A DNA stretch of 64,000 nt from Geodermatophilus sp. DSM 45219 (GTDB taxonomy: Bacteria; Actinomycetota; Actinomycetes; Mycobacteriales; Geodermatophilaceae). Where the stretch lies: contig NZ_FNIQ01000001.1 in NCBI RefSeq assembly GCF_900104025.1, positions 124,001 to 188,000 on the forward strand. The letters are read 5' to 3'. The notes under the pieces are model-generated. The model saw nothing but the letters and a program-made list of their open reading frames with translations, ran no database searches and was not told the origin of the DNA. Shown here piece by piece: positions 35,371 through 56,467 of the stretch. The first letter of the stretch is position 1. Each line of letters opens with the position of its first letter. Both the position numbers and the translations under genes were made by a program.

Positions 35371-36606
35371 TCAGCGCAGGCGCAGCCCCCGACGCAACTC
35401 CTCCGGGCTGACGTTGATCTGGAAGTGCATCGCGTCCTTGACCGACCTCCACCGCCCGCCCCAGGTGATGGCCTGCAGGCCGTCCACCGTCGTGATGGCC
35501 TCGACCACGGCGACCTGCCGGGGGATGAACGCCGTGTCGGCGAGACGCGCCCGCACCTCAGCACACCGCTGTTCCTGGGTCGGCTGCGTCGAGAAGCGGA
35601 CGAGGGGCTGGTCAGGGGTCACGCGATAGGGGTTGCAGGGCGGGTCGATGTCAGTGGCGATGCCGTAGGCGTGCAGCGAGGGCGCGGACCCGCCGGTGAT
35701 CGACCGGTTGTTGAAGTTCCACACGCTGCGCGGCCGGTACCCGGTGGCGGTGAGCGCCCGCTCCAGCGCGCGCCATGCGTCGACGGTGTACGGGTGTACT
35801 GGCGTGGCGGGCAGGCCGAACAGCCGCAGTGGGACCATCGGGACGGTCTTGCCACCGAGGTGCTCGGCCCAGGCCCGGCGCAGCCACGTCGTGGAGCGGA
35901 CGACGGGGACGGCGGCCGGCGGCCCGACCGGCCCGGGTGAGTACGCCGCTTGCAGCGCCGGGCGCACGAGGCCGTCCCGGATGCGCTTCCACTCCTGCGC
36001 CAGGGACCTCTCGTGCGGGGCGATCGGCCTCCCCCGCCGCTCGGGATGCGCCGCGGAGAAGACCAGGTCGGTCAGGGCGTTCTCGTCGCGGGTCCCGAGA
36101 GCGATCGCCCCCGCGATCGCCTGCGGCCAGCGCCGCTGGGCCAGGGCGGTGCGCACCTGCTGGTCCAGGCCCGGGGCGGGGCCCCGGCGCTCCCGCTCCT
36201 CCTGGGCCGCCTCCCAGGCCGCGTCCGCCTCCGGTGGCACGGCCGTGGTCGCGGGCAGGGGTGCAGCAGCGCCCCTCCCGGCGAAGCCTGGCCTGCGGCT
36301 GCCCTCCCCCGAGCGCAGAGGGTCCGGACGGGCCCCGCCGTAGAAGTAGCGGGCACCGATCCGACGCCGTGCCGGCCGACCGTCCCGATGACGGGTCAGC
36401 CGCGCGAGGTGGTAGTGCGGGCGCGGCCGAGGGTCGTGCACGACGGTCCATCCCGGTCCGAGGGCCCGGGCCCGGCGCACCGCCCAGGCCCGCGCCTGGG
36501 ACTCCGCGGCGTACCAGTGGTCTTCCCGGCCGGGCACGCCTGCCATCCCGGCTCTCCCTCCGCCGTGCAGGGCGGGTCCCTCTCCCGTCAGGGACGGCTG
36601 GCGCAT
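35371..36606 (-). CDS. M15-type peptidase domain protein, last gene of the cluster
   Basis: 411 residues, ATG start with GGGGAGGAG upstream. The N-terminal ~80 residues contain a basic domain (HWYAAESQARAWAVRRARAL) and an Arg-rich hinge. The C-terminal ~130 residues form an M15C-like D,D- or L,D-peptidase: SLHAYGIATDIDP supplies His312 and Asp319, and KDAMHFQI gives Asp391 and His394. Such enzymes cleave peptidoglycan peptides. No signal peptide is seen, unusual for a wall enzyme. It could be exported by another route or be a cargo protein. The 36-base gap from the upstream gene fits an operon. Confidence 0.75.
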   Translation of the reverse strand: MRQPSLTGEGPALHGGGRAGMAGVPGREDHWYAAESQARAWAVRRARALGPGWTVVHDPRPRPHYHLARLTRHRDGRPARRRIGARYFYGGARPDPLRSGEGSRRPGFAGRGAAAPLPATTAVPPEADAAWEAAQEERERRGPAPGLDQQVRTALAQRRWPQAIAGAIALGTRDENALTDLVFSAAHPERRGRPIAPHERSLAQEWKRIRDGLVRPALQAAYSPGPVGPPAAVPVVRSTTWLRRAWAEHLGGKTVPMVPLRLFGLPATPVHPYTVDAWRALERALTATGYRPRSVWNFNNRSITGGSAPSLHAYGIATDIDPPCNPYRVTPDQPLVRFSTQPTQEQRCAEVRARLADTAFIPRQVAVVEAITTVDGLQAITWGGRWRSVKDAMHFQINVSPEELRRGLRLR

Positions 36607-36642
36607 GGCGACTCCTCCCCGGTGTCCGCGCTTGCCTGTCGG

Positions 36643-37791
36643 CTATCCGAGCGCCAGGTCGCGCCGCCGGTCGGACCGCACCGCCGCCACCGGGCGCGGC
36701 CGCCGGTCGTGGGCCGGCAGGGCCGCGACCTGCGGAGCCCGCCGGTCGGCGACCACGCCGATGGCCTGAGCGCTGGTCAGCCACTCCTCGGAGTGCTCGG
36801 CGACCTGGAGCAGCAGCGCCTCGAACTCGGTCCTGCCGGTCTGCAGGACGTGCGCCTGGGCGAGCCAGCGGAGGATCTCCCGGCCGGTGACGGCCATGCG
36901 CTGTCGTGGCGAGGTCATCAGCGGCTCGTGGAAGTAGCGCGTGAGGACCTCCTCGATCACGTCCCACGCGTTGTCGGCCCCGAAGACCCGCTTCACGTCG
37001 TCGGAGTCGAGGATGCGGAAGGCCTCCTCGAGCAGCTGCATGACCTCGACCCGGAGGACGTTGATGTTGCCGTAGGACACGAACTTCAGGTTGTTGCGCA
37101 GGTCGAGGCCGGCCCGCCGCACCACCGCGATGCTGCCGAAGGTCGGGTCGTTGGCGCGGTCGCGGATCACGTCCGAGATGCGCTTGTCCCGCCAGTACTG
37201 CGCGACGTGCCGGTTGAACAGCGTGAACAGCGGGTGGAACTCGCGGTTGGGACGAGCGTCGCCCAGCGGCGCCTTGGCCCCGTAGCCGAACGCGCGCCGG
37301 TAGGCGGCCGCCCGCTCGTGCCGGGTCCCCCGCAGGACCTCGCGACGGTCGAACTGGTAGAGCCCGTACGCACCCGGTCCCGACGACAGCCGGACGGCGC
37401 CGTTGCGGAAGAGCTCCCGCAGCTTGCGCACGACGCGGAAGACCCCGACGCGTTCGTGCTGGTAGATGTAGTAGAGGTCGCCGATCGCGATGATGCGTTC
37501 GGACGTGACCGTCTCGTCGTAGCCCTCGACCCCCTGGGGGATGCGCGTCTGCCCGAACTGCCGCGCCGCCTCCGGGCCGATCCCGACGAGTTGGGCCAGG
37601 CCGCTGTCTGGCGGGGCCGGAGCGGCGCTGTCGGCGTCCGCCGCCTGACGCATGTAGTCGTCGATCTGGCCCACGAGGGCATCGGCCAGTCGGGGGGTCT
37701 CCAGCAGGTCCACCCCGAGCTGGTCGATCGCCTCCTGCCGCAGCTGGGCAAACCGGTCCAGGAGTGCCTGGTACTGCGCCTCGGTCGCCAT
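36643..37791 (-). CDS. Unknown protein of the metalloprotease/acidic-repeat cluster
   Basis: 382 residues; the ATG shares its first base with the stop codon of the upstream gene (TGATG). No known family is recognised. It is mixed alpha/beta in look, with a helical N terminus (QYQALLDRFAQLRQEAIDQLG), a central RIIAIGDLYYIYQHERVGVF segment, an AFGYGAKAPLGD turn and RHVAQYWRDKRISDVI. The last ~40 residues are Pro/Arg-rich and probably unfolded. There is no signal peptide and no membrane helix. The coupling shows it is made together with the neighbouring proteins. Confidence 0.7.
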   Translation of the reverse strand: MATEAQYQALLDRFAQLRQEAIDQLGVDLLETPRLADALVGQIDDYMRQAADADSAAPAPPDSGLAQLVGIGPEAARQFGQTRIPQGVEGYDETVTSERIIAIGDLYYIYQHERVGVFRVVRKLRELFRNGAVRLSSGPGAYGLYQFDRREVLRGTRHERAAAYRRAFGYGAKAPLGDARPNREFHPLFTLFNRHVAQYWRDKRISDVIRDRANDPTFGSIAVVRRAGLDLRNNLKFVSYGNINVLRVEVMQLLEEAFRILDSDDVKRVFGADNAWDVIEEVLTRYFHEPLMTSPRQRMAVTGREILRWLAQAHVLQTGRTEFEALLLQVAEHSEEWLTSAQAIGVVADRRAPQVAALPAHDRRPRPVAAVRSDRRRDLALG

Positions 37792-39269
37792 CAGAACACC
37801 TCCACCCGGCCTGCATGCCTGCCATTCGGGTCGGCCTGGGCCAGCTTGCAGTCGAAGATCAGCACGTACCGCCGGTCATCACGGGCGACGCCGGAGTAGT
37901 TGTGGGGGAATCCCCGGGGATAGTCCAGCCGCCCGTCACCCCGGCCCTCGAACACGGTGAACTGCACCGTCCCGGTCCCGGGGGGCAGGTACAGGGGCCC
38001 CATGCGGTACAGGTGCTCGTCGCACCTCGCCATGTCGATCTCCTCGGACCACCTCTCGTTGGCGTCCGAGTTCCACGTCACGAAGAACCGCCCGCAGGGG
38101 CGACAGTCGCTGGCCCCCTCGGCCAGGGCGAGCAGGTGCCGCTCGAGCGCGCGCAGGGCCTCTTGCACCGACAACGCGCCGAGCCCCAGTCCGTCGTCCG
38201 GCTCGTTGAAGACGATGGCTCCCTCGACCAGGCGGCGAAGTCGGCGCGCCCCCGACTCCAATGCCCCGGTGATCGCGAGGCGGCCCCCGTCCTTCACCAG
38301 CCGCGGGCCCTCCTGAGTCGCGAAGTCCTCGGTCCACTCGAGCAGGTCCTCCAGCAGGATGCGCTCGGTCTCGGAGACCCGGATCGACCGCGTACGTCGT
38401 TCGTCGGCGTCGATGAGCACGGCATCGAGGGCGGCGCGAAGCTCTCCGACAGAGCCGGCCACGACGGCCAACCTGCGTTCGAGCTGGACCAGCTGGATGC
38501 CGAGGAACGCCGAGGCGCCGGCCTGGTCGAACGATCCCTTGTCGCGCTCCCAGTTGGTGCGCAGCGAGGCCAGGTCGTCGGTGATGATGCGGAAGTTGGT
38601 GAGCTGTTGCTCCTCCCCGGCGACGTTGACCCGCCCGGCCGGAGCGTTCCCCTCGAGGCCGAGGACCGAACGCAGTCGGCCCAGCTCGCCATCGACCAGG
38701 TCGGGGTCGGTCACCAACGGGCTCTCGCCCAGGAGCACCTCCCACAGCTGGTCGACCCGTGAGACCCGTGGCCCACCCAGTCGACCGAGCTCCACGACCA
38801 GCTCACGGAACTCCGTCGCGATCACGCTCCTCGTGGCCGCCGCGATCTCCTCGTCCGCGTCCTCGATCAGCGGTTCGAGCCCCTCCAGCAGCGGGAGCGA
38901 GCGGTTGAGCGCTTCGGTGGCCCGCACGTGCAGGCTGGCCTGGGCACCGACCACACCGCCGTCGAGCTCGCTGTGGAAGCTGGCGATGCCCGGCTTGTGG
39001 CGGTAGAGCACCCGTCCGTGCTGCTCGTAGGGCTCGAACGCGTGCTCCAGCGCGGTGAGGACGCCGTCGATCCGGGCCGGCTTCCGGCGCCAGCCCAGCA
39101 CGTCACCGATGGCACCCTCCACGGCGTCCTTGAGGTCGCCGGTGCCGCGCTCCTCCCGCTCCCGGGTGGCGGTGGCCGCCGTGGTCCTCACCGGATAGGT
39201 CAGGAACTGGCGCACCGCCTGGAGGAGGTCGTCGTTCTGGTTCCGGCCGTTCCTCAGTGGCTGGTTCAT
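37791..39269 (-). CDS. Unknown 492-residue protein of the cluster
   Basis: The ATG overlaps the stop of the upstream gene in ATGA. No family is recognised. The central part (about residues 90-330) is predicted helical with Leu/Glu repeats (ALNRSLPLLEGLEPLIEDADEE), suggesting a coiled or bundle fold. The C-terminal part has CRPCGRFFVTWNSD and a beta-rich end (YLPPGTGTVQFTVFEGRGDGR; FIFDCKLA-like). Cys pairs near residue 395 could bind metal. It is soluble and without export signals. Likely a structural component, but this is a guess from shape only. Confidence 0.7.
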   Translation of the reverse strand: MNQPLRNGRNQNDDLLQAVRQFLTYPVRTTAATATREREERGTGDLKDAVEGAIGDVLGWRRKPARIDGVLTALEHAFEPYEQHGRVLYRHKPGIASFHSELDGGVVGAQASLHVRATEALNRSLPLLEGLEPLIEDADEEIAAATRSVIATEFRELVVELGRLGGPRVSRVDQLWEVLLGESPLVTDPDLVDGELGRLRSVLGLEGNAPAGRVNVAGEEQQLTNFRIITDDLASLRTNWERDKGSFDQAGASAFLGIQLVQLERRLAVVAGSVGELRAALDAVLIDADERRTRSIRVSETERILLEDLLEWTEDFATQEGPRLVKDGGRLAITGALESGARRLRRLVEGAIVFNEPDDGLGLGALSVQEALRALERHLLALAEGASDCRPCGRFFVTWNSDANERWSEEIDMARCDEHLYRMGPLYLPPGTGTVQFTVFEGRGDGRLDYPRGFPHNYSGVARDDRRYVLIFDCKLAQADPNGRHAGRVEVF

Positions 39270-39775
39270 CCCGCCCTCCCCGGCGTCTGTACGTAGACCG
39301 GCCCGATGGGGGCGCGGTCAGCGAGCTCCTGCCAGCACCGGCACTGCGCCTCCTGGACCGCGGCGACCCGCGGCCGACAGCGGTCGATGCCCTGCCGGAC
39401 CACCCGCACCCAGGCCGGCCACTCGCCGCCGCGTTGCCGCAGCGCCGCGACCGGTTCCAGTGCCTCGTAGGAGACGACGTCGTCCCGGTAGCGGTCGGCG
39501 AGCACGGTCAGCGCCATCTGCGCCGCCGCCAACTGGCGTTGGGCACCGACCAGGTCGAGCCGCTGCGCGGCCTCTGCAGCGAGCAGTGCGCTGTGGTGAG
39601 CCTCCTCGGCACGCCCGTCCAGGTCGTCCACGGCCCTCCCGAGCCGGTCGACGACCGACAGGTCTGCCGGTGCGTCCTCGCTCAGCGTCAGGCCCAGCGA
39701 GCGGATCTCGGCCCGGAGCTGCCGGCAGCCCTCGGTGAGCTCGGCGACCGCGGTGGGGACACTCATCGCGCTCAC
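39266..39775 (-). CDS. Small helical protein of the cluster
   Basis: 169 residues from a GTG at 39775 that overlaps the protease stop in GTGA; an ATG at 39766 is an alternative. The protein is almost wholly helical, with heptad-like leucines (AVAELTEGCRQLRAEIRSLGL; GAQRQLAAAQMALTVLADRY). It ends with Cys/Trp residues (EAQCRCWQEL). No family is known. It is coupled on both sides to other cluster genes. Confidence 0.7.
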   Translation of the reverse strand: MSAMSVPTAVAELTEGCRQLRAEIRSLGLTLSEDAPADLSVVDRLGRAVDDLDGRAEEAHHSALLAAEAAQRLDLVGAQRQLAAAQMALTVLADRYRDDVVSYEALEPVAALRQRGGEWPAWVRVVRQGIDRCRPRVAAVQEAQCRCWQELADRAPIGPVYVQTPGRAG

Positions 39776-41094
39776 CGTCGGGCGAGGTCGCGGTAGAAGT
39801 GGCGGGTGATGACCTCGGGCGGGGCGAGCCGGCGGTCGAAGGCCAGCCGGGCGGCCCCGATGAGGAACCGCTCCGGCAGGATGCCGGGGTCGATCCCGCG
39901 AGCCAGGCGTCTGGCCGCCTCCTCGATCATCTGCTGCTCCTTCGGAGCGAAGCGGATCACCTGGGCCAGCGACCGACGTCCGAGCGTCTCGTACGGCCGG
40001 AAGCACATGGTGTCGACGACGAGGCGCACGGCGTCGTCCGCCGACTCCAGCATCGCCTTCGGATAGGGGGCCGCGCGCCGGCCGTACGTGCGCCGCCACG
40101 CCTTGCGGGAGCCGTCGGCGTCCTCGGGGAACCCCATCCGCGACAGCAGCTCGGCACTGACGAACAGCCGCAGCCACGGCGTCGGGTGCACCGCGGTCGG
40201 GTTGTACGTCCACACACTCGCCGGCGCGCGGGCCAGGATGTCCATCAGCGAGGCGACGACGGCGGGGCCGCCCAGGAGCAGGCCGCACAGGTCGGCGAAG
40301 GTCTCCCTGTTCCACCGGCGCCACACCCGGGCGACCTCCGGCGGGTGCCCCGCCTCCGCCAGCCTCCGCTCGAGCGTCTCCGGGACGACGCGGGCGAGGC
40401 CGAGCTCGTTCTGCAAGTTGTGGCTGACCTCGTGGAGCACCGCCCCGAGCGTCCAGGGGTTCACCAGCCGGTGGTAGGGCAGCTGGATCTGCGGGAAGGG
40501 GTTGCGCTGGAAACCCAGCCGCCGCAGCCGGACGTCCCTCCGGAACGTGGCCGGGGTGGGGCCGGCCTCCATGCAGCTCATGGGCGCCGGCTGGGGGACC
40601 GACTTGGCGGTGCCGAGCCCCAGGAAAGCGTCCTGGTAGCAGTCGAGGGCGATCCGGTCGCAGCCGAGGAGCCACTCGCCGAACCTCCCCTGCCGCTGAC
40701 CGAAGAAGCCCATGTAGAAGTCCCAGATCCGCTCCACGGCCCGCACGTGCTCGTGCGCGACCTCCCCGGCCGTGACCAGCTGCCGCAGCCGCTCGGGACT
40801 CGGGTCGGCCTGCGCCCGGGCGGCGATGGCGGCGACCCGCCGGTTGAGCGTCAGCAGCGGCTCGCGCAGCCGGGTGATGAGCGCGTTGACCGCCTCCACG
40901 TGTCCCTGCGTGGGTGCGGCGTGCCCGGTGCCGAACTCCTCACGGGTGAAGGGGCGCAGGGCCAGGGCGTGGCGTTCGAGGTTGCGGGTCTGCGCGCTGG
41001 TCCACCGCCCGAGGACCGCCGGGGACCGCGGCGGCGACGGGCGGGGGTCGCTGCTCCGCCCGCGCTGCGTCACCGCTGCGGCTGGCGCGCTCAT
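39772..41094 (-). CDS. HEXXH metalloprotease-like protein
   Basis: 440 residues from the ATG at 41094 (GGGAG upstream); a GTG two codons earlier is less likely. The gluzincin-type zinc site is HEVSHN with His221, Glu222 and His225. The third ligand is probably Glu or Asp in RETFADLCGLLLGGP, about 40 residues on, on a helix as in zincins. The N-terminal ~200 residues are helical and unknown. No signal peptide is present, so it is cytoplasmic or carried out by a non-Sec route. It is followed by a coupled gene and preceded, 36 bases away, by a small acidic protein gene. Confidence 0.75.
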   Translation of the reverse strand: MSAPAAAVTQRGRSSDPRPSPPRSPAVLGRWTSAQTRNLERHALALRPFTREEFGTGHAAPTQGHVEAVNALITRLREPLLTLNRRVAAIAARAQADPSPERLRQLVTAGEVAHEHVRAVERIWDFYMGFFGQRQGRFGEWLLGCDRIALDCYQDAFLGLGTAKSVPQPAPMSCMEAGPTPATFRRDVRLRRLGFQRNPFPQIQLPYHRLVNPWTLGAVLHEVSHNLQNELGLARVVPETLERRLAEAGHPPEVARVWRRWNRETFADLCGLLLGGPAVVASLMDILARAPASVWTYNPTAVHPTPWLRLFVSAELLSRMGFPEDADGSRKAWRRTYGRRAAPYPKAMLESADDAVRLVVDTMCFRPYETLGRRSLAQVIRFAPKEQQMIEEAARRLARGIDPGILPERFLIGAARLAFDRRLAPPEVITRHFYRDLARR

Positions 41095-41130
41095 GACCAC
41101 GCTCCCTGACTGGACCCGGTGGGGTGCTCC

Positions 41131-41745
41131 TCAGCACCGGCACCAGCGCTGTCCGTTGACGACGATCGACCGGCCCGGGACGGCGGCCGGACGACCCGGC
41201 CCCACGCGGTTGGCCTGCTGGGCCCGCCGCCGCGCCTCCGCGATCCACGCCCGGTCGGCTTGCCGGGACCGCTGGACCACCCGGCGGCGCCGGCGCGGAT
41301 CGCGCAGCGCCCGGGAGGCGTGGTGTGCGAAGCGACGCGTCACGAGGTCCAGGGAGACCGGGGCCCCTCGCGAGTACCGCCCCGCCACGTCGGCCGTCGT
41401 GCGGCGCACGACGTGCGGGAGCGCCTGGACGTACGGCCTGGCCGCCGGGCTGTTCCACAGCTGCCGGCCGACCTGCACCGCACGCTTCGTCAGCTCGGGG
41501 ACCCACCGGGCCGCCGCGGGGGCGAGCCGGGCCGCCAGTGCGGGCAGTGCACCGAGGAATGCCTCCGCCTCCGACTCGGACTCCGTCTGCGCGGCCATGG
41601 CCGCCAGGTGCTCCATGAGCCGGATCTCGGCCGCCGGGGACGACGCGGACTCGAACTCGGGGTCGCCGAAGTACTCGTCCTCCGGGTCGCCGTAGAGCTC
41701 GAGCTCCTGGTCGGCCGGGAGGAGGTCCTCCATCATGATCGACAT
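41131..41745 (-). CDS. Acidic-N-terminus protein with basic tail, cluster component
   Basis: 204 residues. The first ~45 residues are rich in Glu/Asp with aromatic spacing (LELYGDPEDEYFGDPEFES). The middle is helical and hydrophobic (FLGALPALAARLAPAAARWVPEL). The C-terminal ~80 residues are strongly basic (LRDPRRRRRVVQRSRQ). Its layout is a shorter version of the larger acidic protein just upstream, so the two are probably related by duplication. No family is known. The start follows the acidic repeat gene by 22 bases. Confidence 0.7.
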   Translation of the reverse strand: MSIMMEDLLPADQELELYGDPEDEYFGDPEFESASSPAAEIRLMEHLAAMAAQTESESEAEAFLGALPALAARLAPAAARWVPELTKRAVQVGRQLWNSPAARPYVQALPHVVRRTTADVAGRYSRGAPVSLDLVTRRFAHHASRALRDPRRRRRVVQRSRQADRAWIAEARRRAQQANRVGPGRPAAVPGRSIVVNGQRWCRC

Positions 41746-41767
41746 CGCTGCGCCTCCTCGGAGGGTG

Positions 41768-42739
41768 TCAGCCGGTCAGCGCGCCGCGGCGGGCGCGCGG
41801 GAGCTGGGTCACGCGGCGGACGGCCCGCTGGTTGCGCTGTGCGGCGCGGGCGGCCACCGTCGGCTGGGTCAGGGCACGGCGGGTCTGCGTCTGGACGACG
41901 CGGCCGACGGTGCTCCTGGTCACCGGCTGCCCGCGACGCGCGCGGCGCACCAGCGGCCGGACGGTCGCGCGGGTCACCGCCGTGGGCAGGATCGTGACGA
42001 TCGGCTGGGTCCCCTGCCGGCGCCGCGCCATGCGGGTGAGGATGCTGTTGACCTGCACCAGTTTGGGCACGATGTCGGGGACCAGACGCTGCAGCACGGC
42101 CTGCTCGCGCGGGGTGATCATCATGACCGTCGCCGCCCCGATCAGCGCCTCCGCCTCGTGGGTCGAGGGCGTCCGGGCGGCCGCCGCGGCCATCGTCTGG
42201 GCGATCGCCTCGTTCTTCGTGATGGGTGCGGCCGGGGACTCGTCCTCGTACTCCAGCTCGTACTCGAGCTCGTCCTCGTACTCCCCCTCGTACTCGCCCT
42301 CGCGGCGACGGACCCGCCTGCGGCGGCGGCCGAACAGGCCGCTGATGGCGCTCATGGCGCCTGGCAGGAACTTGGCTGCCAGGGGCAACGCCTTGGCCGC
42401 GAGCGGCGCCGCCGCGGCGAGCAGCGGCAGGAACTGCTCGTCCTCGTACTCGCCCTGACCCGCGGGGGTCGCGCCGAGGACCTCGTCCTCGAACTCGTCC
42501 TCGAGCTCGAACTCGTCCTCGAACTCACCTTCGCCGAGGCCGAGCGCACCGCCGAGGCCCTTGAGCAGTCCTCCGAGGAAGTCCTCGCCTTCGTCCTCGA
42601 ACTCGTCCTCGTACTCGCCGAGCGGGCTCTCCGTCGACGGCTCGCCGAACAACTCGTCCTCGAACTCGTCCTCGGGCTCGCCCGCCAGTTCCGGATCGAG
42701 TGCCTCGAACCCGACCGCGCCGTCCTGCGAAACGCTCAT
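41768..42739 (-). CDS. Acidic Glu-Asp/Phe-Tyr repeat protein
   Basis: 323 residues from the ATG at 42739 with GGGAGGGCC upstream. Residues ~17-100 and ~135-160 are repeats of E-D-E-F/Y-E (for example EFEDEFELEDEFEDE and EYEGEYEDELEYELEYEDE), separated by hydrophobic segments such as FLGGLLKGLGGALGLG and FLPLLAAAAPLAAKALPLAAKFLPG. The C-terminal ~100 residues are basic and Thr/Arg-rich. No signal peptide. The DNA shows matching short repeats of CTCGTCCTCGAA on the plus strand. It is the first structural gene of the cluster, 65 bases after the LuxR-type gene. Function unknown. Confidence 0.75.
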   Translation of the reverse strand: MSVSQDGAVGFEALDPELAGEPEDEFEDELFGEPSTESPLGEYEDEFEDEGEDFLGGLLKGLGGALGLGEGEFEDEFELEDEFEDEVLGATPAGQGEYEDEQFLPLLAAAAPLAAKALPLAAKFLPGAMSAISGLFGRRRRRVRRREGEYEGEYEDELEYELEYEDESPAAPITKNEAIAQTMAAAAARTPSTHEAEALIGAATVMMITPREQAVLQRLVPDIVPKLVQVNSILTRMARRRQGTQPIVTILPTAVTRATVRPLVRRARRGQPVTRSTVGRVVQTQTRRALTQPTVAARAAQRNQRAVRRVTQLPRARRGALTG

Positions 42740-42804
42740 GAGGCCCTCCCTCATCGTGCATTCCTGGCTGCCCGAGACTAGGGAGAGCCCGGATTCCGGC
42801 CCAT

Positions 42805-43302
42805 TCACACGTTCCTGGGTCGCGCGTTCCCACGTCGCTCGGATGCGGGACGCCGGCCGCCGTCGGCGAAGAGCCGGGCGACCATGGCAGCCCGGGAGTT
42901 CACCTCCAACTTCTGGAAGACGCGACGGAGATGGGTCCCGACCGTCCACTCGCTGATGTCGAGGACCGACGCGATCATCCGGTTCGTGCACCCGCGGGCG
43001 ACCATGCGGACGATCTCCTCCTCGCGCGGGCTGAGCGAGACCCCCGCGGGCTGCGCGGGTTCGTCCAGCACGACGACCTGGCAGCTCAGCCCGTCGACGT
43101 CGAACCGGACGAGGACCTCGCCGTCCGCGCCGGACCGGAGGTGCAGCAGCGCGCGGACGACGCGGCGCAGCTCCGGCACGGCCGCGGCCGTCGGGTCCTC
43201 TGCCCCGGGATGCCCTCCCGGCGCCTCTGCCGCGTCCGTCTCGACCGCACCCTGGGCGATCCGGGACTCCGCTGTCCGGCTGGCTCCTGCGGTCGCTCGC
43301 AC
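42805..43302 (-). CDS. LuxR-type HTH transcriptional regulator
   Basis: 165 residues from the GTG at 43302, chosen for GGAGG close upstream; the frame stays open further upstream. The C-terminal ~65 residues are a clear GerE/LuxR HTH: LSPREEEIVRMVARGCTNRMIASVLDISEWTVGTHLRRVF. The N-terminal part has VRRALLHLRSGADGEVLVRFDVDG-like strands of no known sensor family. There is no receiver domain. Its place at the head of the operon, same strand, suggests it controls the cluster. Confidence 0.8.
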   Translation of the reverse strand: MRATAGASRTAESRIAQGAVETDAAEAPGGHPGAEDPTAAAVPELRRVVRALLHLRSGADGEVLVRFDVDGLSCQVVVLDEPAQPAGVSLSPREEEIVRMVARGCTNRMIASVLDISEWTVGTHLRRVFQKLEVNSRAAMVARLFADGGRRPASERRGNARPRNV

Positions 43303-45770: not shown

Positions 45771-48700
45771 TCAGCACCCGAACGAGGGGCCGACCTCACG
45801 ACCGCTGGCGGGAAGGTCGTGGTGCCCTGGCCTCGGGCCGCCGATCCAGGCCGCGGCAGGCGCCGGCCGACGGGGGCTCGACCGGGACTGCCGGCGGTCG
45901 GCGGCTCGGGCGGCGCGCCAGGCGTCGCGCTCTGTGGCGAGCCGGCCGGCCGGCTGGGCGGCCAGAGCGGGTTCGGCCTGCAGTTCGGTGATGCGCGTCC
46001 GTGCGGCGGCTAGCCCGTGCTGGTCGGCGGCGATGTGGCGGCCGAGGTCGGCCAGTCTGCCCGCGGGGTCCGGGTTGCGGCCCAGGGCGCCGAACGAGCT
46101 CAGCTCGTCATCGCGCCGGCGGGCGGCGTCGGCCAGCGCGCGTCGCGCCCGCTCGTGCTCGTGGCGGGTGGCATCGGCGGCCGCGCGCAGGACCCCGTGC
46201 TCGGGGTGGGCGGCCTCGGCGGTGCGGCGGGCGGCGGCGTCGAAGGCCCGCCACAGCGCCGGCCGGTCATCGGACCGGTCGGCGTACTGGGCGAGCCGGC
46301 CGGGGTCGGCGGGTAGCTGCGGCAGGTAGGGGCGCCATCGGTCGGCCCAGTCGCCGAGCTGTCCGCTGGCGTGGGTGACGGCGGCCCGCCGCAGCCACAG
46401 CCGCCCCGGACCGTCGAGCACGGCCCGGGCCGCGGCGCGGGCTGCGTCGCGGTCGTCGTCCCAGCGGCCGAGCAGGTCTTCGCGGACCCGGTCGGTCTCC
46501 GCCGTCACCGCTCGGCCACTGACCTCGACCTGCTGGGTGGCCCGTTCAGCGATAAGGGCCGCCGTCCGGCACTGGACCTCGAGGGCTGTGATCCGGTCGG
46601 CGTGGCCGGCGGCCAGCGGGACGACCTCGGCCAGCCGGTCACGCGTTGGCTGCAGCAGGGCCAGCCGGGTCTGGCAGTCGTGCTCGGCTGTCCACGCCTG
46701 GTGCAGCTCGGTGAGGACCTGCTCGAGCGGGCGGGGTGCGGCGTAGCAGGCGACCTCGGCGGCGGCCAGTCGCGCGGCGTGCGCAGGGCCGTGGTCGGCC
46801 CGGTCGCGGCCGAAGGCGGCGATCCACTGCTGCCGCGCCTCAACGAGGTCGGCGGCGACCAGGTGAGCGGTGTTGGCGGCCCGGCCGCGGGTCATCCCGA
46901 CGTAGGCAGCGGCGGCCCCGGTGTGCTCACCGATCACGAGATGCGCCGCCTGGACGGTGTCGCCCTGCACCCCGTGCGCGGTGCTGGCGTAGGCCAGCTC
47001 CGTATGGGAGTTGACGTAGTCCGCGGGCAACACTCGCCCTCGCATGGGCGGGGTGACACCGGCCGGGGTGACGTTGGCGGCTGGGGTGACGTCCCCGGCG
47101 GTGGGGGTGACAGTGAGCCGGCCGTCGTCGTGGACGGCGGCGACGGTCCAGGTGTCACGGTTGGCCACGCCAAGGGTGCGGTCGTTGCGGCGGGTGGCGA
47201 TCCGGTCGCCGGCGCCGATCCGCTGCCCTGCCCCCGTGACCGCGACCTGGGCGTCGTCGACGCAGCCGTCGGCGACCAGCCAGTCGCGGATGGCGGCACC
47301 CGCCTCGGCGGCCTGCTCGCGGGTGTCGACCACCACCGCCACCCGCTGGCTCTCGCGGTGATGGGCGGCGGTAGCCGTGGCCAGCGCCTGCTGCAGCGCG
47401 GCGGCATCGGGATGCAGCCGGATCTGGCCGCGGGCGACCAGCGCGTCGAACACGCCGGCGGGGTCGGCACCGGAGCGCATGGCCAAGCTCAGCTCGGCGT
47501 AGGCGGCATCGGGCACCCGATGCCCGGCCTGATCGATGCGGGTGAACCGGTGCACCACGTCCAGGGTCAGGTGAGCGGCCGGGTCGACCTGCCCGGCGGC
47601 CAGGTCCAGCACGCCGCCACGGCCGACCGCGGCCAACTGGTGCCGGTCGCCGACCAGCGCCACCCGCACCGCGCACTCGTCGGCGACGGTGAGCAGCGCC
47701 CGGGCGGTGTCCTGGTCGAGCATCCCGGCCTCGTCCACCACCAGCAGGTCCTTCGGCCGCAGCCGGGCACTCTGCGCCGGGCCGACGTAGACGCCGCCGG
47801 TGAGCGGGTCGGCGTCGCCGGCGCCCAGCCGGGTCCAGGCCCCGTCGTCAGTCCACCGCCAGCCGTGCTGGTGGGCCAGCCACGCCGCCGACCCCGCGGC
47901 GGTGCCGACCTCGGCGGCGGCGACCTTGGCCGCCTTCAGCGTCGGGGTCACCACCATCAACCGGCGGTCTCGCGCCTCCAGCAGGGTGCGGGTGGCGGCC
48001 AGCAGGGTGGTCTTGCCCGCCCCAGCCGCACCCTCCACCACGACCAGCTGCGCGCCACCGGCCAGCGAGGCGGCCGCCGCCGCCTGACCGGCGTCCAGCC
48101 GCGCGAGCGCGGACAGCGGCAACTCCGGCTCGTGCCGACGATCGGCCGCAGGATGAGCGCGTCGGGCGGCGAGCCGGTCGACCAGGTCGGCCTCGACGTC
48201 GAGCACCGACTGAGAGGTCCACGCCCGGACGTGCTCAGGGACATCGGTTCCGTCGCGGTCGAGCAGTGGCACACACCGCGCCATCGCCCGCGCGGTGAGG
48301 TCCTCGGCCAGCTCCACCCGGACCGCTGCGTCGACGACGATGCCCTCGGCGGCGATCAGCTGCTCGACCTCCCCGCGGACGTCGCCCAAGTTCCACGCCG
48401 ACCGGCCGGCGGCCAGCCGGGACAACACGGTGACGACGACAGCGTCGCGGTCCAGCCCGCCGATCGAGGCTGGCGTCAGGTCGACGGGGACGTCGGGGTC
48501 GCGATAGCCCGAGGCGGTCAGCTCGCCCACCCAGCGGGCGGTGAGGTCCTCGCCCGGTTGCGGGGTGACCTTGTCCGGGCGGCCCTCCGCCCAGGCTCGC
48601 CTGTCCCAGGTCTGCCGCAGGACCGGCCCTGGTGTCTGGCCAGGGTGCGCGGCGGTCCATTCTCGTTCGTAGCGGTCCAGGTTGCGGCTGATCTGCGCCG

Positions 48701-49421
48701 CCCGGGCGCTGAAGGCACCCACGTACTCGGCCAACTCCTGTACTTCTCCGGTGCCGTCCAGGGTGTAGCCGTGCGCGGCCAGTGCAGCCCGAAACTGCGG
48801 GTTGGTGACCACCGCGGCGTGCCCGATCCCGTTGATCGCCCCCAGCGAGTCCCGCACGCCCACGGTGTGCAGCCCCCGCCACCTCCCGGCGGCGAACACT
48901 CGGGCGTTGACCTGCAGGTGCAGGTGCCGGTGCGGATCCCCAGCGCGGGAGGTGTAGTGCCGCACCGTCACGGCCTCCAGCACCTCGACGGGCACCTGCA
49001 GCTGCCCACCGCGGGGCCCAACGCGGGTGGTGGCGTGCTCCGCCAGCCAGCCGACGATCTGGGTGGCGGCCCGGTCCTGCGCGGCGTCGTAGGCCGCGGC
49101 GACGTCGGGGTGCAGCGCGGCGGCCAGCGACCAGGACTTGGGCCCATTGACCACCACCTCGACGAACCGCACGGCGCGGTCATCGGTGCGCAGCCACCCG
49201 CGGGCTGTTTCGGTGTCGGGGTCCACGCCGGCCACCCACGCCTCATAGGCGTCGCCGGCCAACGCGGCGAGCTCAGCCACCCTCCCGCCGGAGGCGGTGT
49301 AACGCCGCGCGATACCGGTGCCCTCGGCGAGGTAGTAGTCATCGGCTCGACCCCGGCCGGCCTCCACGTAGTGGCGGGCCGCCGAAGCAGCCCCGGCGTA
49401 GATCTTCATTCCGCCATGCAT
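45771..49421 (-). CDS. MobF-family conjugative relaxase/helicase (TrwC/TraA-like)
   Basis: 1216 residues from the ATG at 49421 (alternatives GTG 49433, ATG 49409). The relaxase domain has tandem Tyr (DDYYL) as nucleophile and the three-His metal site DPHRHLHLQVN. A superfamily 1 (RecD-like) helicase follows, with Walker A GAAGAGKTT near residues 464-472, the VVDEAGML box, and a late STAHGVQGDTVQAAHLVIGE motif. MobF proteins nick at oriT and unwind the transferred strand. The ~350-residue C terminus is Ala/Arg-rich and coiled. The gene points away from the likely oriT at 49450-49590. Confidence 0.92.
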   Translation of the reverse strand: MHGGMKIYAGAASAARHYVEAGRGRADDYYLAEGTGIARRYTASGGRVAELAALAGDAYEAWVAGVDPDTETARGWLRTDDRAVRFVEVVVNGPKSWSLAAALHPDVAAAYDAAQDRAATQIVGWLAEHATTRVGPRGGQLQVPVEVLEAVTVRHYTSRAGDPHRHLHLQVNARVFAAGRWRGLHTVGVRDSLGAINGIGHAAVVTNPQFRAALAAHGYTLDGTGEVQELAEYVGAFSARAAQISRNLDRYEREWTAAHPGQTPGPVLRQTWDRRAWAEGRPDKVTPQPGEDLTARWVGELTASGYRDPDVPVDLTPASIGGLDRDAVVVTVLSRLAAGRSAWNLGDVRGEVEQLIAAEGIVVDAAVRVELAEDLTARAMARCVPLLDRDGTDVPEHVRAWTSQSVLDVEADLVDRLAARRAHPAADRRHEPELPLSALARLDAGQAAAAASLAGGAQLVVVEGAAGAGKTTLLAATRTLLEARDRRLMVVTPTLKAAKVAAAEVGTAAGSAAWLAHQHGWRWTDDGAWTRLGAGDADPLTGGVYVGPAQSARLRPKDLLVVDEAGMLDQDTARALLTVADECAVRVALVGDRHQLAAVGRGGVLDLAAGQVDPAAHLTLDVVHRFTRIDQAGHRVPDAAYAELSLAMRSGADPAGVFDALVARGQIRLHPDAAALQQALATATAAHHRESQRVAVVVDTREQAAEAGAAIRDWLVADGCVDDAQVAVTGAGQRIGAGDRIATRRNDRTLGVANRDTWTVAAVHDDGRLTVTPTAGDVTPAANVTPAGVTPPMRGRVLPADYVNSHTELAYASTAHGVQGDTVQAAHLVIGEHTGAAAAYVGMTRGRAANTAHLVAADLVEARQQWIAAFGRDRADHGPAHAARLAAAEVACYAAPRPLEQVLTELHQAWTAEHDCQTRLALLQPTRDRLAEVVPLAAGHADRITALEVQCRTAALIAERATQQVEVSGRAVTAETDRVREDLLGRWDDDRDAARAAARAVLDGPGRLWLRRAAVTHASGQLGDWADRWRPYLPQLPADPGRLAQYADRSDDRPALWRAFDAAARRTAEAAHPEHGVLRAAADATRHEHERARRALADAARRRDDELSSFGALGRNPDPAGRLADLGRHIAADQHGLAAARTRITELQAEPALAAQPAGRLATERDAWRAARAADRRQSRSSPRRPAPAAAWIGGPRPGHHDLPASGREVGPSFGC

Positions 49422-49433
49422 TCTCAACGCCAC

Positions 49434-50129
49434 CCAACAATGACCAACACGCCACCCCCAGAAACGGCAGTGGGCCCCGCGAAGCGGGCCCGGACTACCC
49501 CTATGGGTAGCATGCGTACCGTTCTCTAGTAAATGAGTGAGTGTCGATTGTCGACGTCGACAGGTGCGAGTTGTCGACTAGAGCGATTGTGAAATTGGAT
49601 GAGCGATGGCTATTGGTGGCTCCGAAAGAGCTTGACGGGCATCAGCACAAGGATGGCGCCTCGAAGGTCCACGGAAGCAGGAGCACACGAGGGCTCAAGC
49701 TTCGGACCAGGCCCCCGCCGGGCATGACCGCAGCCGCGCACTCCCCGGCTCAGAAGCTTCGGCCCACGGGTCGACGTACCGCGCTCAACGGAACCGAGCC
49801 AGCCGCAGAGGGGGTCTTGCTCTGTAGAGCACGGTCTCCCAGAAGGCGGCTTAAGCCCTCGGTCGGCGGGCTACGAGCAGCGCATCGTCTTGTCCGAGGT
49901 GGCACCAGTGGAGCAGGACCTCCACGTCGAAACCATGCTGCCGGAGGTCGCCGAAGACCTGCTGGCCTTCACCCGTGGTAGCGCAACGTCAGCCGATGAG
50001 CACTTAGAGCTGTAACGATCTTATAACGCGGCGTAGTCACCAGCTGTGTGGCCTAGCTAACAAGCCAGGCTGCTTCCGGTCCCCATCGGGTGTCAGTACA
50101 GCCGGCCGTTGCCTTGCGAGGTCTTGCAC
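49434..50129. other. Gap with oriT-like structure and a possible gene fragment
   Basis: This 0.7 kb between the divergent relaxase and large secreted protein genes has lower GC than its surroundings. A hairpin TACCC-CTAT-GGGTA lies at 49496-49509 next to a GC hairpin near 49472-49490. Repeated GTCGAC units occur at 49545-49580. These are features of transfer origins. Around 49866-50015 a frame reads GYEQRIVLSEVAPVEQ and ends at TAA, which looks like the end of a lost gene. Confidence 0.45.
49472..49590. other. Candidate origin of transfer (oriT)
   Basis: Located 50-170 bases upstream of the relaxase start, the usual place. Contains an imperfect GC hairpin, the perfect 5-base-arm hairpin 49496-49509, and direct repeats of TTGTCGAC at about 49548 and 49573. 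No nick site can be assigned from sequence alone. Confidence 0.4.
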
Positions 50130-53100
50130 ATGCGCGCTCAGCACCCCGTTCGTCGCCGTGAGGTTCGACCTGTGCGTTCCCGGCGCAGCCTGGTCCTAGC
50201 GGCCGCTGTAGTGGCCGGTCTGACGTCCGCCCCGGTGCCGGCGGTTGCCGCTCCGTCCGAGACTCCTGCGACGGAGCAGGAGGCGCGCGAAGCTGCACAC
50301 GAACAGGCGCCACGGCTCGGCGACCTCGGTGACGACTCCCGTCCGCCGGAGGTCGGGACCCTGGCGGACCTGTCGGACCCGCTGCCCGACGATGAGCTTG
50401 GCGCGGCGCTGACCGAGGCGGGTGCCACCGGTGAGCGGGTCGAAATCGCCTCGCAGACGACCGAGACCTCCATCAGCTACGCCCAGCCAGACGGCACGGT
50501 GCAGATCGAGAGCGCAGCTGGCCCGGTGCGTACCCAGGTCGGTGGCGAGTGGGTGGAGGTGGACACCACGCTCCAGCTGACCGAGGCGGGGGTGCAGCCG
50601 CTGGCGGTCACCGGGGACATCACCTTCTCCGCCGGCGGCGCGCAGCCGATGGCCGTCCTCGGCGACGGCGAGGGCACCTCGATCAGCCTGCGGTGGCCCG
50701 GCGAGCTGCCCGAGCCCGAGCTGTCCGGCGACACCGCCACCTACCCCGACGTGCTGCCCGGCGTGGACCTGGTACTGACTGCCACCCGGCAGGGCTTCAC
50801 CCAGCACCTGGTCGTCAACGAGCGGCCCACCGACCCGGCGGTGATCGAAGCGCTGAGCGCGTTGGAGTTCGACCTGTCTACCGAAGGCGCCACCGTCGCC
50901 GAGGGCGCCGGCGGGCAGCTGCAGGTGCTCGACGGGGCCGGCGCGGTGGTCGGCACCGCCGCCGCGCCGCTGATGTGGGACGCGCGCAACGACGCGCGCA
51001 GCGGCGAGCCGGCCGCCCTCGAACCGATCGAGCTGGACCTGGCCGCGCCCAGTGACCCGGCCGACGACGCGACACTGGTGCTCAGCCCGCCGGCCGAGTT
51101 CCTCACCGACCCGGCCACCGTCTACCCGGTCGTCATCGACCCCACCCAGGCCCTCGGCGCGCTCGGGGACACCTTCGTGCAGAGCAACATCGCCACCACC
51201 CCCCAGGGCGGATCCACCGAGCTGCGCAGCGGCACCTACGACGGCGGGGCGACCCGGGCCCGCGGACTGCTGCGGTTCGACGTCGGCGGGGTGAAGAACA
51301 GGGTGGTGCAATCGGCCAACCTGGCGCTATTCGAGACCTACTCCGGCTCCTGCAGCCCCCGCTGGGTCGACATCCGCAAGGCCGGCGACTTCGACCCCAA
51401 CACCGTCACCTGGAACAACCAGCCCTGGATCGGCTGGGCCGTGGCCGACCTCGTCGGCAACGCCAATGCCGCCTTCGGTTACAGCTCGGCCTGCCCGGCC
51501 CGCTGGGTCGACTTCAACCTCACCGGCTGGACCGCCCACTTCGCCGACACCCGCACCAACGCCGGCAACGTCATGGCCCTGGCCGTCACCGCCAGCAGCG
51601 AGACCGACACCCCCTCGTGGAAGAAGTTCGCCTCCGGCAACGCCGGCAGCAACGTGCCGCTGCTGACCGTCACCTACGACGGCAGCTGCGATCAGTACAA
51701 CGGCAACACCGTCTGCGGCGCCGTCCGCGACAAGTACTACGCCCTCGGCGGCCCCGGCGGCACCCTCGGCCTGCCCACCAACAGCACGGCCCCGCTGCGG
51801 GACAGCGGCAGCTTTAACCACTTCCAGCACGGATCGATCTACTTCTCCCCGGCCACCGGAGCCCACCTGATCAAGGGCGGCACCCGGGACAAGTGGGCGT
51901 CGCTCGGCTGGGAGAACTCCTACCTCGGCTTCCCCACCACCGACGAAATCTGCGGACTGCGGAACAACGGCTGCTTCAACCACTTCCAGGGCGGCTCCAT
52001 CTACGGCTCCCCGGCCTCCGGCGTGCACACCATCCGCGGCGCCATCCGCGACAAGTGGGCCTCCCTCGGCTGGGAGAACTCCACCCTGGGCTACCCCACC
52101 ACCGACCACACGGCCCTCACCGGCGGAGCGTTCAACCACTTCCAGAGCGGCTCCATCTACTGGTCGGCGTCGAGTGGGGCCCACACCGTCGCTGGCGCGA
52201 TCCGGGACAAGTGGGCCTCCCTCGGCTGGGAGAACTCCACCCTGGGCTACCCCACTACCGACGACACGGCCCTCACCGGCGGGGCGTTCAACCACTTCCA
52301 GGGCGGCTCCATCTACTGGTCCGATCCCACTGGAGCTCACACCATTCGAGGGTGGATCCGTGATAAGTGGGCGCAGCTAGGTTGGGAGCGCTCCTACCTC
52401 GGCTATCCCATCATCGACGAAACCGCTGTGTCCGGCGGTGCCTACAACGACTTCAGCGGTGGTTCCATATACTCGTCCGTTGATAGCGGCGCGCATGCGC
52501 TCCACGGTCAATTCCGAGATTACTGGAACGCGTTGGGTGCCACCGCCAGCACGCTCGGGTTTCCCGCAAGTGACCAGTATGCCACTGACTACGGGTCCCG
52601 CCAAGATTTTCCGGGCGGTCAGATCATCTTGACTGCCGACAGTGGCGGGCCGCGTGATTGCACCATCACCGGCTCCTCAAACGCAGATCAACTTATTGGC
52701 ACTGCTGATGACGACATCATCTGTGCGCTTGATGGCGATGACATTGTTGATGGCCTGGAAGGTGCAGACGTCATCCTTGGAGAGGCCGGCAACGACACTT
52801 TGGCTGGAGGTCTCGGCGCCGACAGCCTTCGGGGTGGTTCAGGGCATGACTTTCTGCTGGGCGATGCCGATTCCGACGTCTTGGAGGGCGAAGGTGGCGA
52901 TGACCGACTGACTGGCGGACTTGCCGATGACCAACTGAGGGGTGGAGCTGGCGCTGACGAACTCACGGGCGGTGACGGCGCCGACACACTTCTCGGCGAG
53001 GCGGAAGCTGACACTGTCTCGGCCGGTGACGGAGACGACTCCGCCGACGGCGGTGACGGCGCCGACATTCTTGCAGGCGGTGCCGGCGCGGACACCATTC

Positions 53101-54383
53101 TTGGTGGTCGGGGTGCGGACGGACTGACCGGTGATGCTGGCACCGACGTCCTAGCAGGCCACGATGGCGACGACGATTTGCAGGGTGGGGATGACAGCGA
53201 TGAACTCTTCGGAGGTCTCGGCCAGGACGCGCTAACCGGCGGTTCCGGAGACGACCGGCTGGACGGCGGTCCGACGGGGGACAGTGTTGATGGCGCCGAC
53301 GGATCCGATGCTTGCATCATGGCCGATGCTCGCACCCACCTGCTGGCTTGCGAGGACGTGCATACGAATACTGCTGTGGACACCACGGCAAGCTATGTCA
53401 CGGAGGCCGCGCCTGTTCGGATGGCAACCGATATCCTCGTGATTAGCGGAAGCGAGCTCGTGGCCGACAGCGCCAGCGCGACCGTGACGACAAACATCGT
53501 GCCCGAAGGAGGCGCTCGCCTCGTCACGCCCTCCGCCACCGGCACCGAGGCGACGGTTGAAATCGGCCTCGGCCTGCCACACGCGGAGTCGCTTGACGAC
53601 GCCCGTGTAGCCGCCGGAGGTACAGCCGTTTATGCGCATGACCAAGGCCTTTTCGATGTTGCCGTGCAAGCCATTGGAGGAAGTCTTCGTCTTGCGACGG
53701 TTATTTCATCCGCAGCTGCTCCCACTCGTTATGAGTATCCCGTCGCCCTGCCGCCGGGCGCCATCGTCCGATTCGACTCGGACGGGGAGGTTGTGATGTT
53801 CGCGGCAGATGGCACATTCGTGGGCGGCTTGGCTCAGCCGTGGGCGAAAAGCGCCGATGGTTTCGACGTGCCGACGCACTACGAGTTGGACGGTACTACC
53901 CTGACTCAAGTCGTTGATCACACAGCGCCTGGGGTTATCTACCCAGTGATCGCAGATCCCCACCTTGGAACGTATACGCGCTACGCAATCACCGCTGGGG
54001 GCGCTCCTGCTTCATCGAGCGGAGTCGCGGCGGCGGCGGACGTCATCAACTGTACGGTCAAGGCGCATAACCCCCATCCCTCAACGCATGCCCGCGGCGC
54101 TCGGGTCAATGCCGAGGTCAGGATCACATGCACCAAGCCCGTGGCGCGGATGTTTGCTGCTACGAGTCTCTATAGGGGAAACGGCTCCTTCTACCGCGCT
54201 GGCGATGCGAGCACTGTGTACGGGCGGAAGCAGTCGTCATGGTTCGCGAATGGGCCATGTGTAACGGACAGCTATTACATCCGAGGTCAGGTCGTCGTCA
54301 CCTTCCCGCCCGGTTACAAGCCTGATCGTCTGCAAACATCGGTGAAAAGCACGACGGCGTGGATCCACTGTGGAGTACGCTAG
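50130..54383 (+). CDS. Large secreted mosaic protein: DNRLRE domain, LGFP repeats, RTX repeats
   Basis: 1417 residues from the ATG at 50130 (GAGG upstream). A Sec signal lies at residues ~15-40 (RSLVLAAAVVAGL, then AVAA). About 345-520 is a DNRLRE-type beta domain (DTFVQSNIATTP; LLRFDV; VTWNNQPWIG). About 525-840 holds at least six LGFP repeats (RDKWASLGWENSTLGYPTT), as in mycolate-layer or wall-binding proteins; two are almost identical in DNA with a 156-base period (52041 and 52197). About 850-1055 holds RTX calcium-binding repeats (GGDGADTL). The C-terminal ~350 residues are unknown. Codon use loosens sharply after about 52340, suggesting the 3' part came from another source. Confidence 0.85.
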   Translation: MRAQHPVRRREVRPVRSRRSLVLAAAVVAGLTSAPVPAVAAPSETPATEQEAREAAHEQAPRLGDLGDDSRPPEVGTLADLSDPLPDDELGAALTEAGATGERVEIASQTTETSISYAQPDGTVQIESAAGPVRTQVGGEWVEVDTTLQLTEAGVQPLAVTGDITFSAGGAQPMAVLGDGEGTSISLRWPGELPEPELSGDTATYPDVLPGVDLVLTATRQGFTQHLVVNERPTDPAVIEALSALEFDLSTEGATVAEGAGGQLQVLDGAGAVVGTAAAPLMWDARNDARSGEPAALEPIELDLAAPSDPADDATLVLSPPAEFLTDPATVYPVVIDPTQALGALGDTFVQSNIATTPQGGSTELRSGTYDGGATRARGLLRFDVGGVKNRVVQSANLALFETYSGSCSPRWVDIRKAGDFDPNTVTWNNQPWIGWAVADLVGNANAAFGYSSACPARWVDFNLTGWTAHFADTRTNAGNVMALAVTASSETDTPSWKKFASGNAGSNVPLLTVTYDGSCDQYNGNTVCGAVRDKYYALGGPGGTLGLPTNSTAPLRDSGSFNHFQHGSIYFSPATGAHLIKGGTRDKWASLGWENSYLGFPTTDEICGLRNNGCFNHFQGGSIYGSPASGVHTIRGAIRDKWASLGWENSTLGYPTTDHTALTGGAFNHFQSGSIYWSASSGAHTVAGAIRDKWASLGWENSTLGYPTTDDTALTGGAFNHFQGGSIYWSDPTGAHTIRGWIRDKWAQLGWERSYLGYPIIDETAVSGGAYNDFSGGSIYSSVDSGAHALHGQFRDYWNALGATASTLGFPASDQYATDYGSRQDFPGGQIILTADSGGPRDCTITGSSNADQLIGTADDDIICALDGDDIVDGLEGADVILGEAGNDTLAGGLGADSLRGGSGHDFLLGDADSDVLEGEGGDDRLTGGLADDQLRGGAGADELTGGDGADTLLGEAEADTVSAGDGDDSADGGDGADILAGGAGADTILGGRGADGLTGDAGTDVLAGHDGDDDLQGGDDSDELFGGLGQDALTGGSGDDRLDGGPTGDSVDGADGSDACIMADARTHLLACEDVHTNTAVDTTASYVTEAAPVRMATDILVISGSELVADSASATVTTNIVPEGGARLVTPSATGTEATVEIGLGLPHAESLDDARVAAGGTAVYAHDQGLFDVAVQAIGGSLRLATVISSAAAPTRYEYPVALPPGAIVRFDSDGEVVMFAADGTFVGGLAQPWAKSADGFDVPTHYELDGTTLTQVVDHTAPGVIYPVIADPHLGTYTRYAITAGGAPASSSGVAAAADVINCTVKAHNPHPSTHARGARVNAEVRITCTKPVARMFAATSLYRGNGSFYRAGDASTVYGRKQSSWFANGPCVTDSYYIRGQVVVTFPPGYKPDRLQTSVKSTTAWIHCGVR

Positions 54384-54389
54384 GTCGCT

Positions 54390-55175: not shown

Positions 55176-55430
55176 ATTGTTATGGCACTAAGGTCGCTCT
55201 GGCGGATGCGCGATCTAGTGCGCTGAACCTATGGGGCGGCGGATGGACGTTCAGGGGTCGATGAACACCCACTGAGGTTTTCTCTACGGTTCGATTGCTC
55301 GACGGTGGGTTAGTACGAGTGCTGCCTTACAGGTCAGGAGACCTTCGTATTGCAGAAGCAACTCAATGTATCATGCGCAGTGAAAGCCTTGGGCTAATTG
55401 ATGGCGTCGCTGGTCGCAGCCGGGGTACGG

Positions 55431-55631
55431 CTACAGATGGCTCTTCAACGTCTTGAGGATTCCGGTCCAGCGGAGCTCAGGCGTGTGACCGCCAACGAAT
55501 GGCCCCAGCTTGTCCTGGTGTTCGCTCAGGCACTTCAGCATGTCCAGGCTCGCAACGGACATCCGCCCGCCCTGGACGTACTCACCTTGGTTCGTGACCC
55601 AGTACTCCGTCATGCCTTCCTTGAAGAGCAT
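55431..55631 (-). CDS. Small unknown protein downstream of the Cys-rich gene
   Basis: 66 residues (MLFKEGMTEYWVTNQGEYVQ...). It starts 15 bases after the stop of the Cys-rich protein gene on the same strand, so it may be a second gene of a pair or a piece detached from it by a stop mutation. No family is recognised. Codon use is weak. Confidence 0.4.
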   Translation of the reverse strand: MLFKEGMTEYWVTNQGEYVQGGRMSVASLDMLKCLSEHQDKLGPFVGGHTPELRWTGILKTLKSHL

Positions 55632-55646
55632 CCAGCCGCGACGTCG

Positions 55647-56201: not shown

Positions 56202-56467
56202 GGCTGGATGTTGCCAGTCAAGCAGCCGTTACGAGTAGGCACGGGCGATCGGCGCAGCCGGCTCGCTGACCGGGTGGGGAGCGACAACTAGGGCCGCCGG
56301 GCTACTGCTCGGGGGCGATAACCCGGCGGGCCAGTCCGCACAGAGTCCGCAGATTGTCCACAGAACGGCCACAACGAGCCATCGTCAGCCCACCGCCTTC
56401 GACACCGATAAACGCAGGTCACAGCCACACCCAGGGCCGTCCTAGCAGGTCAGCGGAACGTGCCGAG

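Follow-up and report, generated by a model that had tools for sequence, protein, structure and literature searches.

The window analysed here is a stretch of 64,000 nucleotides from Geodermatophilus sp. DSM 45219 (contig NZ_FNIQ01000001.1, positions 124,001 to 188,000), and the element under study is an eight-gene operon on its minus strand, whose genes are designated R and A to G (Table 1). A preliminary description, made from the letters alone, had read these eight open reading frames (ORFs) as one unit with a LuxR-type regulator, a HEXXH protein and a final M15-type peptidase, and all of this was confirmed, the HEXXH motif of C being HEVSHNLQ at residues 221-228. Three overlaps between neighbouring genes had also been described. 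Those of D with E (39266/39269) and E with F (37791) hold, but that of C with D (39772/39775) is probably not real, because it needs a GTG start at 39775, while the gene caller and the D of the sister species, Geodermatophilus saharensis (L022), favour an ATG at 39766. For A, an alternative start lies at 42754.

Table 1. The operon genes in window coordinates
Gene	Coordinates	Strand	Length (residues)	Description	Basis
R	42805..43302	-	165	stand-alone LuxR-type (GerE) regulator	PF00196, E=2e-17
A	41768..42739	-	323	acidic-aromatic repeats, hydrophobic stretch, basic C-terminal domain	no family
B	41131..41745	-	204	shorter A paralogue with the same C-terminal domain	no family
C	39772..41094	-	440	HEXXH metallopeptidase-like; most widespread part	invariant zinc-peptidase signature
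D	39266..39766	-	166	small helical protein	tblastn relatives
E	37791..39269	-	492	helical core and variable C-terminal domain	AlphaFold2 model
F	36643..37791	-	382	all-helical protein	61 relatives, 49-66% identical to the window copy
G	35371..36606	-		putative exchangeable payload; M15_4 peptidase at residues 305-397	Peptidase_M15_4 (PF13539), E=8.6e-12

The family libraries searched were Pfam, NCBIfam, PHROGs and PADLOC. For the six products A-F, nothing rose above the curated cut-off in Pfam or NCBIfam, the best sub-threshold Pfam value being 0.0013, for C, and nothing fell below E=0.01 in PHROGs or PADLOC; the five products first said to match no family were therefore an understatement. R is one of 30 GerE genes in this genome. 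No tRNA or Rfam match was found within the window.

The arrangement of the operon is conserved well beyond its own genus. Within the order, E occurs in 7 of 150 genomes, its own included (6 of 149 others), and A/B, C, D, E and F lie together in the 20 kb around E in all six of the others, the D of L020 being recovered by a later tblastn only; the M15 gene is common to the sister species alone. A C-profile scan of one genome per species returned 103 relatives, 80 of which were kept (45-91% identical), and four early loci were dropped as duplicates of named contigs. A plasmid search found a complete Paraburkholderia megaplasmid (L116), on which tblastn located A, C, D, E, F, M20, amidohydrolase and LuxR genes, with a B-like gene between A and C. 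Genes of the relatives came from our own gene-calling script, which called no core gene in nine loci and only part of the core in others; locus order and the M20 and amidohydrolase counts were therefore taken by tblastn. By this measure, 69 of 84 loci have C, E and F in the same order and on the same strand; among the 67 loci whose sequence extends 5.5 kb past C, 62 do. Each of the five exceptions lacks an E or F match by single-query tblastn, and in three of them (L087, L096 and L101) E was found by profile. A gene of the A/B family lies upstream of C in 70 of the 78 loci with 1.5 kb of sequence there. A best-scoring LuxR-type relative was present in 65 of the 84 loci, upstream and divergent in 40, counted with no distance limit inside the locus; GerE genes are common, and some of these may be there by chance.

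C was found in eight phyla and the ordered C-E-F set in seven: Actinomycetota (37 loci, 37 of them ordered), Cyanobacteriota (17, 13), Acidobacteriota (14, 10), Chloroflexota (10, 6), Planctomycetota (2, 1), Pseudomonadota (2, 1), Armatimonadota (1, 0) and Thermomicrobiota (1, 1), records from metagenome-assembled genomes among them being open to misbinning. Order and strand are thus kept across phyla, and the arrangement is beyond chance, which bears out the neighbourhood conservation on which the preliminary description had made its reading depend. The identities of C track those of F (r=0.83, 50 loci) and E (r=0.80, 48 loci), with none of 999 permutations as high, and therefore the core travels as a unit. 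Alignments held 57 of 70 called relatives for C, 51 of 64 for E and 61 of 61 for F. The C tree (58 rows) groups the phyla, although not cleanly, with 10 changes for 7 groups against a minimum of 6, and the Paraburkholderia C is nearest to a mainly acidobacterial set (63-70%). C was detected in 0 of 395 other genomes of the phylum, with 4 candidates per genome scored among the matches listed; this figure, like the other prevalence figures, is a lower bound. Judged from these sequences, the sparse, patchy spread and the mixed tree would suit horizontal transfer, without amounting to proof of it.

What follows F changes from locus to locus. F is present in 73 loci, 67 of which have 1.5 kb after it; among the 73, tblastn placed an M20 gene after F in 33, an amidohydrolase gene in 17, at least one of these two in 40, the two together in 10 and a trypsin-like gene in 3, invariably on the operon's strand. 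Of 91 downstream genes, 63 were scanned against Pfam, the 28 left out being the Amycolatopsis lyase and CoA-binding genes, LuxR genes, short genes and some that seemed unrelated; the scan gave M20 (24), amidohydrolase (12), peptidoglycan-binding (4), OmpA (3), M15_3 (2) and M35 (2), with Het-C, DUF4056, trypsin, GIY-YIG, NS endonuclease and SLT once each. Single proteins add an M74 endopeptidase (L099) and a DUF2272 protein (L068). The five loci matched by tblastn with the M15 query are not a peptidase count, since L068 and L099 match a shared middle domain and L030 is weak (1e-10).

Several of these proteins are mosaics. Three N-terminal domains, besides those of G, each occur in at least three proteins with different ends. 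About 100-145 N-terminal residues (52-78% identical) are common to the proteins of L025 (Chloroflexales) and of L049 and L062 (cyanobacteria), with no likeness at E<=0.001 beyond them, and the L062 protein ends in GIY-YIG. About 100 residues (27-53%) are common to L035, L061 and L064, L035 ending in an NS endonuclease. The two proteins of L097 and that of L101 have in common a QWLFEAP/QWLFEIP tag and a peptidoglycan-binding domain (56-68%), and the tag is also present in L096. In a genome-wide search for QWLFEAP, one exact match each was found in 3 of 14 cyanobacterial genomes, all at the N-termini of operon payload genes (L096, L097 and L100), and the sequence is therefore not a tag scattered over the genome. 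The A/B domain itself lies inside payload-position genes of L044, L045 and L096, and one C-terminal domain sits on two carriers, in L061 and L044 (29% over 62 residues). G is built in the same way: the stretch 29-94 has a counterpart, at 39%, in the OmpA protein of L025, and residues 164-220 recur at 57-59% in the DUF2272 and M74 proteins. We infer that G is a payload of this kind. The HEXXH protein and the M15 peptidase, first grouped together as two hydrolases, accordingly fall apart into a conserved core component and an exchangeable part. The suggestion of an internal lysis or development system found no positive evidence; among the genes scanned, an M15_4 peptidase occurs in the tail only in the window and its sister, and wall lysis therefore cannot be the general function.

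A second exchangeable region is the C-terminal end of E. Between the window and its sister, identity is 94% for A, 93% for F, 91% for C, 89% for B, 82% for D, 76% for the M15 protein, 68% for R and 57% for E, falling to 28-34% over E residues 361-480. Pfam matches in 52 E proteins include TTR-52 in four, with SdrD_B, SpaA, collagen, CarboxypepD_reg, CshA and others in single members, and a PASTA-like end was spotted by eye in Blastococcus. The AlphaFold2 model of E (mean predicted local distance difference test score, pLDDT, 79.8) has confident helices at about residues 108-387 and a poorly predicted beta-rich end; F is predicted to be all-helical (pLDDT 80.7). A capsid-like or injection-system fold, which the preliminary description had advised looking for, did not appear: at E<=0.001, neither model matched a PDB fold, and F matched nothing among the viral models of BFVD. 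The first two rows for E, a clostridial phospholipase (probability 0.15, template modelling (TM) score 0.09) and the periplasmic region of PilJ (probability 0.89, TM 0.21), were taken as generic helices. Sequence searches for PDB kin of C, E and F gave non-credible rows, the best being F against an antifreeze protein over 42 residues (0.0026).

A and B belong to one cross-matching set, as each query hits the other's family. Across 119 A/B proteins, the median charge is -33 in the first half and +22 in the second, and acidic-aromatic triplets number 1427 against 144 in shuffles, about tenfold. Such charge-segregated proteins, rich in these triplets, might gather hydrolases such as M20 and amidohydrolase in a condensate or coat, so that the operon would serve as a compartment or surface assembly for metabolism or matrix remodelling. 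In its favour, no tail enzymes are commoner than M20 and amidohydrolase, which stand together in ten loci, but the nucleases, M35, Het-C and murein endopeptidases, and the mosaic build, fit no single pathway, and we regard this explanation as unlikely.

In C, the residues H221, E222, H225, E264 and D268 are invariant across 58 rows, and Q228 is kept in at least 90%; C thus has the HEXXH motif and a downstream Glu within ExxxD, a signature that we take, from sequence, to be that of a gluzincin. A hydrophobic stretch lies inside 19 of 71 C proteins. Relatives of D were found by tblastn in 51 of 87 loci and went undetected in most cyanobacteria. By simple hydropathy, a strongly hydrophobic N-terminus occurs in none of the window products, in agreement with the earlier statement that they lack Sec or Tat signals, nor in any of 119 A/B, 71 C, 48 D, 62 F and 34 payload proteins other than M20 and amidohydrolases, and in only 1 of 65 E proteins.

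This lack of obvious signals would also be expected if A-F held enzymes inactive within the cell and C freed them upon infection or stress, in intracellular conflict or self-killing. Distant relatives of C (26-29% identity) on rhizobial plasmids point the same way, since the two inspected (L117 and L118) adjoin genes for CHAT, patatin, phospholipase D and S8/C25 peptidases, a setting typical of conflict systems. Against this stand the absence of PADLOC matches in the seven proteins scanned (A-G), the several payloads that target peptidoglycan, outside the cytoplasm, and the adhesin-type ends of E, which suggest an outside target; we consider this explanation improbable. The C-relative plasmid loci (26%), around position 10000 of L117 and L118, are possibly a separate, uncharacterised conflict locus.

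A fixed core order, exchangeable mosaic enzymes, an exchangeable E end, the absence of obvious signal peptides and the zinc-peptidase signature of C are the observations to be explained. A core that stays fixed while the enzymes, with their docking-like domains, and a binding end are exchanged is the pattern of a deployment device. We therefore think it plausible, at a confidence just short of even, that A-F make up the conserved core of a hitherto undescribed system, patchy in its distribution, which would be put together in the cytoplasm and would deploy enzymes that can be exchanged. In such a system, the LuxR-type protein would turn the operon on, and A and B, by self-assembly or coacervation, would hold the payload, which may dock by short shared domains or acidic-aromatic N-terminal tags, or be fused to an A/B domain. 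The scaffold would consist of F, D and the helical portion of E, the changing end of E would bind the target surface, and C might cut A/B or payload for maturation or release. The payload, here the endolysin-like M15 peptidase, could then act on a competitor, prey, host or the producer itself. The preliminary idea of packaged or non-classically exported enzymes gains from the conserved neighbourhood and the interchangeable enzymes, although no capsid-like or injection-system fold was found for E or F, and the earlier interpretation as a whole is partly supported.

Several points weigh against such deployment. The commonest payloads, M20 and amidohydrolase, are atypical as toxins and may belong to metabolism, the nucleases, SLT and Het-C being single cases. 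After F, the Amycolatopsis and Saccharopolyspora loci show neither M20 nor amidohydrolase nor any other payload that was recognised; in Amycolatopsis (L020, L077, L080 and L082), the core is followed by a conserved pair of genes that we take to be cystathionine-lyase-like and CoA-binding-like. The domain matches of E come mostly from single members, and its synonymous divergence (dS) is also raised (0.74 against 0.31-0.41), so that allele exchange explains part of the change in E, beside fast change. No immunity gene was noticed among the downstream genes, where no systematic search was made; many Photorhabdus virulence cassette (PVC) loci are without immunity genes, according to Zhang et al. 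2012 (PMC3482391).

For the core, whose function is uncertain, the searches found neither a family nor a fold nor a named system. More specifically, we tentatively propose, and with clear reservations, a new deployment machine without Sec/Tat signals or a contractile tail, in which a particle or condensate would be formed by two polyampholytic proteins for assembly, a metallopeptidase for maturation and three helical proteins as scaffold, with an exchangeable E targeting end and domain-docked enzyme payload, passed among about eight phyla. Six families without a library model are kept in order in one operon across distant phyla, and the swapping of enzymes and of a binding end that goes with them is usually a mark of weapons or delivery devices. 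A deployment device would add a route without signal peptides or contractile tails, and a compartment would be a bacterial protein assembly of a new kind; in both cases, many 'hypothetical proteins' are given a context.

Beside the operon, the window carries a TrwC relaxase with an AAA helicase domain (45771-49433; 3.9e-50) and an IS110-type transposase (60254-61489), and the guanine-cytosine content dips between them (52000-58000), which suggests an inserted mobile element. An ORF at 57934-59886 has a nuclease-type domain (GmrSD_C, 1.7e-24), ends in an Excalibur calcium-binding region and adjoins a long proline-alanine run, and a 1424-residue ORF at 50109-54383 contains repeats, presumably LGFP-like and RTX-like.

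No description of the operon was found in a word search of the open-access literature, subscription papers and preprints being outside its scope, and none of the known carriers tried accounted for it. Delivery of the extracellular contractile injection system (eCIS) or PVC type resembles it in having a metallopeptidase with an HExxHxxQ...E signature, varied payloads and overlapping host phyla. An accessory unit that gives contractile injection systems added loading or release functions would agree with that signature in C and with the frequency of the PF04984 sheath (27 of 40 holder genomes tested, 25 over the cut-off) and of eCIS_core PF13699 (18 of 27), figures that are a lead only, with no base rate from matched operon-free genomes. 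In Nucisporomicrobium flavum, a sheath-like, a tube-like and one further tail-like gene follow directly after the operon's M20 gene (L068, 17476-20581), the sheath being confirmed by PF04984. Such adjacency was noticed in one locus only, however, and neither marker was matched in the window's genome or in Blastococcus xanthinilyticus, so that contractile injection is not a required carrier. The kinship of C with eCIS_core suggested by its motif was not supported, the profiles aligning over 8 columns at an hhalign probability of 4.5. We consider an accessory role of this kind very improbable.

Like phage endolysins and M15 murein peptidases, G has the PF13539 domain and weak PHROG endolysin matches (best 4.6e-6), the only matches of the operon proteins in PHROGs apart from chance-level ones, but its front half consists of the two domains common to other payloads of the operon. 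A viral origin was discarded: relatives of C were absent from viral contigs and phage records and those of E from viral contigs, in addition to the lack of a match for F among the viral models.

On the favoured reading, the operon would operate much as polymorphic toxin systems do. Their secretion route was not recognised here, with no Pfam trafficking domain among the genes scanned and no adjoining secretion gene, and the operon differs from them in that its payloads are mostly separate genes after a six-gene core, with M20 and amidohydrolase the commonest. A constant domain with different ends occurs in a handful of cases, such as GIY-YIG on L062 and NS endonuclease on L035. According to Zhang et al. 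2012 (PMC3482391), the enzymes of polymorphic toxins include nucleases, peptidases, Het-C and peptidoglycan-acting domains, and those systems are like the operon both in joining constant domains to changing enzymes and in their broad, patchy spread.

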